Shown here: positions 26,986-36,280 of the stretch, in pieces
Position numbering within the stretch: the stretch's first letter is position 1
How the letters are laid out: each line of letters starts with the position of its first letter
Origin: Limosilactobacillus sp.
Lineage (GTDB): Bacteria > Bacillota > Bacilli > Lactobacillales > Lactobacillaceae
Length of the DNA stretch: 37,332 nt
Assembly: GCA_030530845.1 (NCBI GenBank)
Contig: JAUMUE010000015.1
Coordinates: 1-37,332, forward strand
Reading direction: 5' to 3'
Program-made: the position numbers and the translations under genes
Notes under the pieces: model-generated
Told to the model about the DNA's origin: nothing
The model's input: only the letters and a program-made list of their open reading frames with translations
Database searches by the model: none

Positions 26986-28095
26986 ATGTTAAAGCGGATT
27001 ATTCGATTGCTTTACGTCCTGGCCGGTGCGATGGTCGGTTTCTACTACCTGCCATTAATATGGGACTTGCTGGGGCTGAGACTTGACCGTTCGCTGTTGG
27101 TATTTATGGATATCGCAATTGGTGCAATTATTCTTTGGTTATTATCGCTGGTATTGGTAAATCCAACAGAGAAACTTGTTCATCGCCTAGAAAAGGAATT
27201 GACCAACCAGAGCCCGATCTACATTTTCTTCGGGGGATTACTGACGATCATCGGTTTGGTAATCGCAGTGTTGATCTCAATTCCACTGTGGCGTTCACAC
27301 ATTCCAGTAGTAAATAACCTGGTACCAGTCATTTTGATGGTGGCATTCTCATACTTTGGATACAAGATTGGGACTTCCCGCCTCGATGACTGGAAGACCC
27401 TGGCATTTATCCGCCGTGGTAAGGATAGTTCTACCAGTGGCGAAGTTATTAAGCAACAGGATGCAAACTACCACCACTATAAGATTTTGGATACCAATAT
27501 TCTGATCGATGGCCGGATTTATGACCTGGTCAAGACTGGATTCTTGGAAGGGACGCTCTTGGTACCAAACTTTGTCCTGTATGAACTGCAATACATTGCG
27601 GATTCTGGGGAAAGTATCAAACGGGTCCGCGGTCGCCGTGGTTTGGATATTTTGAACAAGCTGCGTGAAGAAAAGATCGTTCCAGTTGAAATGTACGAAG
27701 ATGACTTCGAGGACATTCCAGAAGTCGATTCTAAGTTGATCGCTCTGGCCAAGAAGGTTGACGGAATCATTGTTACCAACGACTACAACCTCAACAAGGT
27801 GATTCAGTTCCAAAACGTTGACGTGCTTAACATCAACAATCTGGCTAAGTCACTGCGTCCACGAGTGATTCCTGGTGAAAAGCTCAAGGTTGTGGTTGTC
27901 AAAAATGGTACCGAACGTCAACAGGGTGTTGCCTACCTTGATGACGGTACGATGGTCGTGGTTGAAGATGGACGTTACTTTATGGATCAACCAATTGACG
28001 TCGAAGTTACGAGTGCCTTGCAGACGGATGCTGGTCGGATGATTTTCGCCCGTCCACTTCACTCACAAAAAGGTATTAAGGAAGATCATAAATAA
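26986..28095 (+). CDS. yacL: Membrane-anchored PIN/TRAM domain protein (YacL family)
   Basis: A 369-residue protein. Four hydrophobic segments (about 1-125) anchor it in the membrane. A PIN nuclease-type domain (about 160-285) follows, with acidic residues in ILDTNILIDGRIYDL, YIADSGES and VTNDYNLNK. The C-terminal TRAM domain (about 290-350; KLKVVVVKNGTERQQGVAYL) is expected to bind RNA. An RNase activity is inferred from the fold only. The ribosome site is GGAGGG. In Bacillus and many Firmicutes this gene sits between radA and the gltX-cysS region. Here gltX is missing and cysS follows after a 374-base gap holding a small RNA. Confidence 0.88.
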   Translation: MLKRIIRLLYVLAGAMVGFYYLPLIWDLLGLRLDRSLLVFMDIAIGAIILWLLSLVLVNPTEKLVHRLEKELTNQSPIYIFFGGLLTIIGLVIAVLISIPLWRSHIPVVNNLVPVILMVAFSYFGYKIGTSRLDDWKTLAFIRRGKDSSTSGEVIKQQDANYHHYKILDTNILIDGRIYDLVKTGFLEGTLLVPNFVLYELQYIADSGESIKRVRGRRGLDILNKLREEKIVPVEMYEDDFEDIPEVDSKLIALAKKVDGIIVTNDYNLNKVIQFQNVDVLNINNLAKSLRPRVIPGEKLKVVVVKNGTERQQGVAYLDDGTMVVVEDGRYFMDQPIDVEVTSALQTDAGRMIFARPLHSQKGIKEDHK

Positions 28096-28097
28096 GA

Positions 28098-28139
28098 AAA
28101 GGGTGCTAGATCTGGATTAAACCGGACCTAGCACCCTTT
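28098..28139 (+). terminator. Terminator of the dut-radA-yacL operon
   Basis: AAAGGGTGCTAG (28098-28109) pairs with CTAGCACCCTTT (28128-28139). An inner TCTGG/CCGGA stem extends it; the T tail is short and interrupted. Confidence 0.82.
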
Positions 28140-28156
28140 AATTTTGGTTTGGAGAC

Positions 28157-28306
28157 AAAAAAAGAGATAGCCTGGGAGTGCTATCTCATTAGGGAGTATT
28201 ACGATACCTTGGGGGAGATTTCGTAATCATTTAATTTTTCGGTTACTATTGGGAGGAGTAATTGAAAAATAATAGGTTTCATTAATGTAGCAAGTTATCT
28301 TGCTAC
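28157..28306 (-). ncRNA. Candidate small RNA with CUCCC loops (minus strand)
   Basis: Read on the minus strand, a -10 box TATAAT (plus 28311-28316) precedes four hairpins. H1: GTAGCAAG/CTTGCTAC, plus 28287-28306, right at the predicted start. H2: TTACT/AGTAA, 28243-28261, loop CCTCCCAAT. H3: ATTACGA/TCGTAAT, 28198-28227, loop AATCTCCCCCAAGGTA. H4: GAGATAGC/GCTATCTC, 28164-28187, loop ACTCCCAG, followed by seven T at 28163-28157, a perfect intrinsic terminator. A single-stranded ACTCCCT lies between H3 and H4. The CUCCC motifs can pair with ribosome-binding sites; AATCTCCC is complementary to cysS bases 28456-28463. No open reading frame is evident. The -35 box is poor. I know no named family matching it. 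Confidence 0.72.
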
Positions 28307-28310
28307 GGTT

Positions 28311-28316
28311 ATTATA
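28311..28316 (-). promoter_or_regulatory. -10 box of the small RNA (minus strand)
   Basis: Plus-strand ATTATA reads TATAAT on the minus strand, giving a start near 28304-28306, where the first hairpin begins. At 17 bases upstream only TTTTCT is found, so an activator may be needed. Confidence 0.55.
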
Positions 28317-28410
28317 GTAACAAGAGAATGTGAAGAAAATATGACCAAAACTTGCAAATAATTTAACTACATTATTGTTGCCAGGGGCCAAAAACACATG
28401 GCATGGAATG

Positions 28411-28419
28411 TGGTAAAAT
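28411..28419 (+). promoter_or_regulatory. Extended -10 promoter of cysS
   Basis: TGG then TAAAAT. Around the -35 position lies an inverted repeat, TGCCA (28379-28383) and TGGCA (28399-28403). No T-box features are seen between here and the cysS start. Confidence 0.5.
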
Positions 28420-28469: not shown

Positions 28470-29882
28470 ATGTTAACGATATACAATACTTTAACGCGAA
28501 AAAAAGAGGAATTTAAGCCAATGCAACCGGGCGTTGTTAACATGTATGTATGTGGTCCCACCGTTTACAACTACATTCATATCGGTAACGCGCGCAGTGC
28601 AATTGCCTTTGACACAGTTCGTCGCTACCTTGAATTTAAGGGCTACAAGGTCAACTATGTATCAAACTTTACGGACGTTGACGATAAGATGATCAAGGAA
28701 GCAAATGCGGAAGGGATTACTGTCCCACAACTGGCTGACAAGTTCATCAAGGCCTTTATGGAAGATACCGAAGCGGTCAACATCGAACCCGCAACGATGC
28801 ACCCCCGCGCCACCGAAAACATCACAGAGATCATTGCCTTCATTTCTAAGCTGATCGACAATGGTTATGCTTATGAAAGTGACGGGGATGTCTACTACCG
28901 CGCACGCAAATTTAAGCACTATGGTGAATTATCCGGTCAATCAATTGATGATCTGGAAGTCGGCGCCAGTGAACACGTGAGCGAAGATGAAATCGGCAAG
29001 AAGGAGGATCCAATGGACTTTGCATTATGGAAGTCCGCTAAGCCTGGTGAAATCAACTGGGATTCTCCATGGGGCAAGGGTCGCCCAGGCTGGCACATCG
29101 AATGTTCAGTGATGTCCACCAAGTACTTAGGTGAAACTATTGATATTCACGCTGGTGGTCAAGATTTACAATTCCCACACCACGAAAACGAAATTGCCCA
29201 AAGTGAAGCTGCAACCGGTAAGCCATTTGTTCGCTACTGGATGCACAACGGTTTCGTCACAATCGGTAAGGACAACGAAAAGATGAGCAAGTCCTTGCAC
29301 AACTTCATTACCGTTCACGACATCATCAAGACGGTCGATCCACAAGTGCTGCGTTTCTTCATGGCGACAACTCAATACCGCCGTCCAATCCAATATAGTG
29401 AAGCTAACCTGACTGATGCTAAGAACAACCTCGACCACATCCAAACTGCTTATGATAATTTGACCTACCGGGAACAAGACGCCCAAGCTGGTGAAGATCA
29501 AGCGGTGAGTGCACAAGTGGCCGAATTTAAGGACCGTTTCGTTGACGCGATGGACGACGATATCAACGTGCAAAACGGTATCGCTGTTGTCTACGAACTC
29601 GTCAAGGCAGCGAACACATATGCCCAAGAAGCAACCGTTAAGGACCAAGCACTCAAGGCATACAAGGATGCAATTGCTAAGTTAATCAGCGTCTTCGGAA
29701 TCAAGCTGGTTGAAAGCAACAACGAGATTAACGATGACGAGATTATGGCATTGATTGAAGAACGTAACGAAGCTCGGCGCAACAAGGACTTCGCGCGCAG
29801 TGACCAAATTCGTGACGACTTGAAGAAACAGGGGATTATTCTGGAAGATACCCCACAAGGAACTCGTTACAAGAAGGAGTAG
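28470..29882 (+). CDS. cysS: Cysteinyl-tRNA synthetase
   Basis: A 470-residue cytoplasmic class I synthetase charging tRNA-Cys. The zinc ligand C28 ([10 protein letters not shown]) comes first, then the HIGH-type motif YIHIGNARS at 35-43, and KMSKS at 271-275. The C-terminal [19 protein letters not shown] is the tRNA-contact region. Length is typical. Its ribosome site is GGGAGATT at 28456-28463, an unusual GGGAG core that is complementary to a loop of the neighbouring small RNA. It begins a cysS-mrnC-rlmB operon, with mrnC only two bases downstream. Confidence 0.96.
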
Positions 29883-36143: not shown

Positions 36144-36280
36144 GTTGATTAAATATGACTCTGCCTAAGACTCAGGTGGCATTTAGCCTTAATCTTGCCT
36201 GCCGAGGAAGAAATGAAAGTTCCTTCTCTATGTCTGCGGTCATAGGGATTTTTTATTAAATCCGATCAAAAATACATTGC
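36144..36280 (+). promoter_or_regulatory. L10 leader (ribosomal protein autoregulatory RNA)
   Basis: The leader has the conserved Firmicute L10-leader segments: CCTAAGACTCAGGTGGC (36164-36180) and CCTTAATCTTGCCTGCCGAGG. An intrinsic terminator follows, TCTCTATG (36225-36232) with CATAGGGA (36241-36248) and six T. In the known family, the L10(L12)4 complex binds the leader and favours termination. Confidence 0.85.
36225..36254 (+). terminator. Attenuator terminator of the L10 leader
   Basis: An 8-bp stem with one G-U pair, loop TCTGCGGT, and six T at 36249-36254, about 40 bases before rplJ. Confidence 0.82.

Follow-up and report, generated by a model that had tools for sequence, protein, structure and literature searches.

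A predicted small RNA with anti-Shine-Dalgarno loops between yacL and cysS of Limosilactobacillus, and its apparent relationship to LhrC and Ref84

The yacL-cysS gap and the predicted RNA

The window, a stretch of 37,332 nucleotides from a Limosilactobacillus genome (contig JAUMUE010000015.1), contains the genes yacL (26986-28095) and cysS (28470-29882), and the minus strand of the gap between them encodes a predicted RNA of about 150 nt, running from 28306 to 28157. The RNA, its putative promoter and its parts are as follows:

28157..28306, minus strand: small RNA, predicted start 28306 and terminator end 28157 (fold, conservation, covariation and full-length model match)
28329..28345, minus strand: direct repeat GTCATA-TTTTC-TTCACA, found in loose form in 49/49 promoters of the genus
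28314..28322, minus strand: extended -10 TGTTACTAT (conserved TG-n-TAnTAT), from the promoter alignment
28287..28306, minus strand: hairpin H1, without the CUCCC motif; compensatory changes in 6/9 pairs
28234..28270, minus strand: hairpin H2, 5' arm and loop AUUUUUCAAUUACUCCUCCCAAU, complementary to Shine-Dalgarno + UUG + AAAAA; stem without compensatory change
28235..28280, minus strand: near-invariant core GAAACC...GAAAAA (alignment of 39 sequences)
28198..28227, minus strand: hairpin H3, loop CCCCCA (predicted fold and alignment)
28188..28197, minus strand: single-stranded linker UACUCCCUAA (predicted fold; ACTCC in 38/49 copies of the genus)
28157..28187, minus strand: terminator hairpin H4, UCCC loop and U7; stem recoded between species, compensatory changes in 9/9 pairs

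The four minus-strand hairpins of the original prediction, the last of them a perfect terminator stem (8 pairs, seven U), are present as claimed. It had also placed four unpaired copies of CUCCC in the RNA; the H2 loop CCUCCCAAU, the linker UACUCCCU and the H4 loop ACUCCCAG are all single-stranded in the predicted fold, but the H3 loop is CCCCCA only, the preceding UCU being paired. A promoter-like box lies upstream as described, but its TATAAT (28316-28311) is not a conserved hexamer and relatives keep the extended -10 TG-n-TAnTAT instead; a plain sigma-70 scan reported no promoter at the RNA locus. The folding energy of 28150-28330 is -39.0 kcal/mol, compared with -18.4 +/- 3.3 kcal/mol for 200 shuffled sequences, none of which folds as well (z -6.2). 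Just past yacL, at 28097-28142, is a long inverted repeat, almost perfect and with runs of A and of T, which, by eye, is likely to be a two-way terminator; elsewhere in the window there is an ordinary ribosomal protein L10 leader (36146-36263; RF00557, 72.3 bits).

The RNA was at first thought to be antisense to the cysS leader, with cysS as a candidate target, and neither proposal is supported. The likely cysS promoter (TGGTAAAAT, 28411-28419, identified by eye) lies beyond the start of the RNA and outside its extent, and the two transcripts should therefore not overlap. The ribosome site GGGAGATT is found in 1/47 cysS leaders, that of the window species only, and cysS ranks 130/365 in predicted pairing; cysS was rejected as a target on these results. 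The suggestion that the locus occupies the usual place of gltX is half right, since two loci (L015 and L071) do have gltX upstream in the same gap, yet the RNA adjoins cysS there. In two other species (L036 and L037, from G026 and G047) the RNA adjoins gltX (assigned with NCBIfam), with no cysS within the approximately 1.5 kb read; the arm of these two copies is complementary to AUG instead of UUG.

The plus strand carries a perfect Shine-Dalgarno sequence and then TTG (GGAGGAGTAA-TTG-AAA), as would a cysS leader or a small open reading frame on that strand. We consider such an element highly improbable: the terminator and the extended -10 are on the minus strand, the locus is away from cysS in two species and no cis-regulatory Rfam family reaches its threshold in the gap. 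In the stretch read, the plus-strand frame has 7 codons in 28/49 copies and 9 to 40 in 18 and is missing in 3, and on this variation the opposite-strand open reading frame was rejected.

Conservation in Limosilactobacillus and the wider family

A match was obtained in each of the 50 Limosilactobacillus genomes, but in G035 it covers 16 bp and is due to chance, and the RNA is therefore carried by 49/50; model R1 found no copy in the one-contig genome of G035. Alignment A1 comprises 39/49 copies, those omitted (L004, L008, L009, L010, L019, L022, L023, L024, L039 and L044) being mostly near-duplicates; copies from related species are not independent of each other. Across the 39 aligned copies 93.5% of cells pair in the four-helix structure and both partners vary in 18/41 pairs; the structure has a covariation score of 0.295, compared with 0.135 +/- 0.006 for shuffles and 0.04-0.10 for slid positions. 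The H4 stem is freely recoded. In H2, 9/12 pairs are invariant and the other three depart by unpaired cells alone, with no compensatory change, and H2 therefore looks constrained in sequence and not in shape only. Among the 49 copies of the genus, the H2 motif ACTCCTCCC and an H3 loop with at least four C are found in all (TCTCCCC in 38), and the H4 loop has TCCC in 43. Compared across Limosilactobacillus, the gap thus has covarying stems and conserved C-rich loops, the pattern on which the original prediction depended, and the feature is confirmed as a real, conserved RNA-like structure. It has the characteristics of a trans-acting base-pairing small RNA, namely its own predicted promoter and terminator, covarying stems and a location free of its neighbours. 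One copy (L044, from G037) is a natural half-mutant: the U-rich part of its H2 5' arm, 11 nt, is missing, and the anti-Shine-Dalgarno part is kept.

The complement of the H2 arm reads as a putative Shine-Dalgarno sequence, then a start codon, then codons for an M-K-K/N beginning. In 44/49 copies of the genus the complement of the H2 arm and loop is GGGAGGAGUAA-UUG-AAAAA; AUG takes the place of UUG in 2, and 3 have neither codon. Outside the genus, 87 distinct copies were compared, from other genera and from other families, and their complement contains GGAG-n3-8-ATGAAA in 67 and GGAG-n3-8-ATGAAAAA in 51, and the anti-start triplet is CAT in 61, CAA in 12, CAC in 2 and missing in 12. A comparison of the arms in 78/107 copies (1.05 bits for the 5' arm, 0.73 for the 3' arm) gives weak support. 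The only near-perfect complement of the arm found in a genome-wide search was the RNA locus itself.

A scan of the gap with Rfam 15 found no family at threshold, in keeping with the description of the RNA as undescribed-looking. The best sub-threshold bacterial small RNA on the window is ar14 (RF02344), with 22.8 bits for a cut-off of 58.8. LhrC (RF00616; gathering score 110 bits) gave no match on the window even at E 10, and Ref84 (RF02846; gathering score 52 bits) gave none.

Model R1 matches 58/301 genomes of the family Lactobacillaceae at E <= 0.1 per genome, 53 of them at E <= 0.001, in 13/40 genera including Limosilactobacillus, Paucilactobacillus and Lactiplantibacillus. Model R2, built from 82 Lactobacillaceae matches outside Limosilactobacillus and including no Listeria sequence, matches 163/345 genomes of the order in 49/79 genera at E <= 0.01, with one to at least nine copies each. 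E-values of both models are rough and 9 or 10 candidates were scored per genome, such that copy numbers are lower bounds; other Lactobacillaceae genera have up to at least four (R1) or at least six (R2) copies per genome, and the window genome has one with either model. A control with R2 over 200 genomes drawn from the class as a whole gave three matches outside the order, of 33-38 bits each. For locus L139 (G438) and genus g53 (family f9), several members have at least nine matches per genome, some in tandem, and these copies have the same arm and linker. In G121 a T-box leader (L084:2507-2750, 109.3 bits) lies approximately 0.8 kb from the RNA copy.

The original prediction considered the RNA to be without recognisable homology, which the model scores do not support. 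R2 gave 42 matches of 23-34 bits on ten LhrC loci called by Rfam, the next best being 17 bits, and the eight of these copies inspected by eye fit LhrC. In G337 an R2 match coincides with a true Ref84 (79.5 bits for a cut-off of 52); among 16 other R2 loci scanned for Ref84, eight score 34-41 bits and eight have no match. Copies of intermediate form also occur in other families of the order. It is unlikely, on these three lines of evidence, that the Lactobacillaceae RNA arose independently and resembles LhrC and Ref84 by convergence on CUCC loops, U-rich arms and a terminator. Such an origin would fit the window copy, which matches neither model, and the LhrC scores of the Lactobacillaceae copies scanned, which are far below the cut-off of 110 bits (at best 35.5 bits; LhrC is matched from end to end by two short copies in L093, at 35.5 and 32.9 bits). 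It would also fit the R2-LhrC alignments, which skip H3 such that the likeness is in H2, the linker and the terminator, and the promoter repeat described below, which is carried by 0/15 LhrC copies tested. Common descent is the reading we prefer: judged by model score, the Lactobacillaceae copies, LhrC and Ref84 are probably one old family, of which the RNA appears to be the Limosilactobacillus branch within a wide order-level group. Matches to RF00616 are concentrated in family f8, taken to be the Listeriaceae: 34 of the 36 genomes with a match, among 345 in all, belong to it, with 28 above the cut-off.

A plasmid or phage origin was rejected, with no match in plasmid or phage collections. 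No Lactobacillaceae RNA family of this kind is described in the literature searched, which covered few subscription papers, or in the accessible part of a paper on lactococcal small RNAs (PMC13109727), and no paper was found under the name Ref84.

Promoter repeat and predicted targets

The consensus GTCATA-n5-TTCACA is at -35 distance from the extended -10. Direct repeats with an 11-bp period that replace the -35 element are typical of OmpR-type response regulators, and the repeat is likely to be a response-regulator box. Upstream of the distinct copies from other genera and families TCA[ACT]A-n5-TTCA[ACT]A is present in 51/87, compared with a mean of 0.2 and a maximum of 2 of 87 in 100 rounds of shuffling.

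The form TCAYA-n5-TTCAYA has six sites in the window genome (the RNA, htrA and four others), against two for the reversed pattern. The htrA box is 64 nt before the gene and differs from that of the RNA in 1/16 bases; the protein has trypsin-like and PDZ domains and matches the NCBIfam HtrA models below their cut-offs. A matrix made from RNA promoters alone was applied to htrA in 30 hand-picked genomes, a pass being a score at or above 198/200 shuffles. The region upstream of htrA passes in 20/30, with six weaker and four without a site, and the best sites are within 100 nt of the htrA start in 16 of the 20 and 170-210 nt upstream in the other four. The summed log-odds is above zero in just 6/30, and some passing boxes (G016, G017) look degenerate. 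The four without an htrA box include G035, the sole member of the genus without the RNA, and this co-loss, a single case, is suggestive only. The RNA may thus share its on-switch with the stress protease htrA. Two of the six box sites lie just upstream of large surface-protein genes but point the opposite way, one (L273, G000:C7:4204-4219) before the PARCEL-repeat candidate of L227, the other (L278, G000:C42:1693-1708) before the gene of a YSIRK-type surface protein.

GGAG-n3-9-TGAAAAA occurs at 17 sites in the genome, two of which are the RNA locus, compared with 6 for the reversed pattern. Judged by eye, about ten of the other 15 sites belong to exported or membrane-bound proteins, including two PARCEL-repeat surface proteins and one LPXTG protein. 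Extended sites in 46 genomes of the genus number 30 outside the RNA locus, and the 22 that were read divide, by eye, into 9 at membrane or exported proteins, 8 at others and 5 at no real gene.

Pairing was predicted for 360 sampled genes (from 356 kb and the window), with gene starts of our own calling and surface-gene classes set by simple rules of our own, not SignalP. With the arm alone, genes with a hydrophobic N-terminus pair better (p 0.0002, 360 genes), and the best of the 360 encodes a 1343-aa LPXTG protein. Membrane genes exceed the others both with the Shine-Dalgarno part alone (p 0.005) and in what the U-rich part adds (p 0.005); a shuffled U-rich part equals or beats the true arm in 4/60 cases for the median shift and in 33/60 for the top-20 share.

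With the whole RNA and 365 genes, two lipoproteins lead and the PARCEL-repeat protein L227, which was added to the sample because the pattern search had found it, is third; it pairs with the arm at -27.2 kcal/mol. The LPXTG protein is outside the top 20 here, and five other pattern-picked genes (membrane, lipoprotein) rank 147-339 of 365. In a set of 358 genes, ten for lipoproteins or adhesins show stronger pairing than the others (p 0.0003). Surface genes are favoured by 11 shuffled RNAs as well (median p 0.025), by 0/11 as strongly as by the true RNA. The top 20 contains 3 surface genes with the true RNA and 1-3 with shuffled ones, which gives no separation, and the class of hydrophobic N-termini does no better than p 0.074. 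Surface-protein starts appear to pair better than others among the genes sampled, but the signal is of moderate strength and the controls are mixed.

Part of the signal would also be expected of a general brake on translation, in which ACUCCUCCC would mimic the tail of 16S rRNA and bind strong Shine-Dalgarno sequences of all genes alike: the Shine-Dalgarno part on its own already favours membrane genes, several top candidates look cytoplasmic and shuffled RNAs give similar top-20 counts. Such a brake is improbable, as the anti-start-codon and U-rich arm recur across the order and membrane genes gain more in pairing from the U-rich part than other genes do. For surface proteins as the targets, the mixed pairing controls and the mixed genus-wide sites place the case at about an even balance, or somewhat better.

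Proposed mechanism and comparison with known systems

We consider it likely that the locus is transcribed into a trans-acting repressor small RNA, under the control of an envelope-sensing two-component system and directed at surface-protein mRNAs. The two-component system, probably the same as that for htrA, would activate the RNA promoter. Any C-rich loop could make the first contact with a Shine-Dalgarno site; H2 would then open, and its 5' arm and loop would pair with the Shine-Dalgarno sequence, the start codon and the following AAA-AA to form a duplex that shuts the ribosome out. The likely target mRNAs would encode adhesins, PARCEL-repeat proteins and lipoproteins.

More tentatively, and with the balance somewhat against it, the order-wide family (Lactobacillaceae copies, LhrC and Ref84) could be the RNA arm of one envelope-stress response, in which one regulator drives both HtrA and the RNA, and the RNA recognises the start signature of exported proteins (Shine-Dalgarno, start codon, AAA-AA) and not a single gene. 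HtrA would then clear misfolded exported proteins while the RNA halts the synthesis of new surface proteins. To our knowledge, few regulatory RNAs of gut and food lactobacilli have been characterised; for genera used as probiotics, the present results describe the anatomy of one conserved RNA family, with htrA as its candidate regulon and adhesins and lipoproteins as its candidate targets.

The gathering scores of LhrC and Ref84 are not reached and the CiaR box is missing, and membership of LhrC, Ref84 or the csRNAs as defined was rejected. Similarity to ar14 of the Alphaproteobacteria, three hairpins with CUCC-rich loops, is an analogy only, given the low score and the distance between the bacteria. 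Ref84 of Enterococcus has the same layout of H2, ACUCC linker and terminator but is a shorter model (87 positions) and is typed as 'antisense' by Rfam.

The csRNAs of Streptococcus, like the RNA, combine an anti-Shine-Dalgarno with an anti-start-codon sequence. According to the accessible part of PMC3091779 their promoters have a direct repeat with an 11-bp period that is read by a response regulator, CiaR of streptococci reading TTTAAG-n5-TTTAAG, and homologues of CiaH were not found in Lactobacillus. Here the repeat is instead GTCATA-n5-TTCACA, and whereas the pairing stretch of csRNAs is unpaired, between hairpins, that of the RNA is a hairpin arm and loop.

LhrC shares one hairpin with a U-rich 5' arm and a CU-rich loop, the ACUCC(C) linker and the UCCC terminator loop, and, in the wider family of the RNA, tandem copies. 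The three UCCC sites of LhrC, in two loops and a linker, have counterparts in the H2 loop, linker and H4 loop, to which the H3 loop is added. The RNA differs in its extra hairpin H3, its one copy per genome in the genus (as in the window genome) where LhrC has several, its promoter repeat and a score here below the cut-off. LhrC depends on LisR and is induced by envelope stress, for which the only counterpart seen here is a repeat partly shared with htrA. An adhesin is among the LhrC targets, together with further surface proteins, as far as the accessible part of PMC8079631 goes. On lapB, in the part of PMC4132741 available, LhrC makes first contact through any UCCC site before the final duplex, which extends from -21 to +7, with stem-loop A opened over the start codon; the same source has lactobacilli without Hfq.

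The mechanism and layout are thus of a known kind, and a conserved, independent, multi-site anti-Shine-Dalgarno small RNA of LhrC/csRNA logic, as originally proposed, is supported. The connection of the lactobacilli with LhrC and Ref84, the occurrence of the promoter repeat at htrA too and, for this group, a predicted pairing site that takes in the start codon are new as far as searched. The results also suggest an older family, common to harmless relatives, of which LhrC, known from work on the regulation of Listeria virulence, would be one branch.
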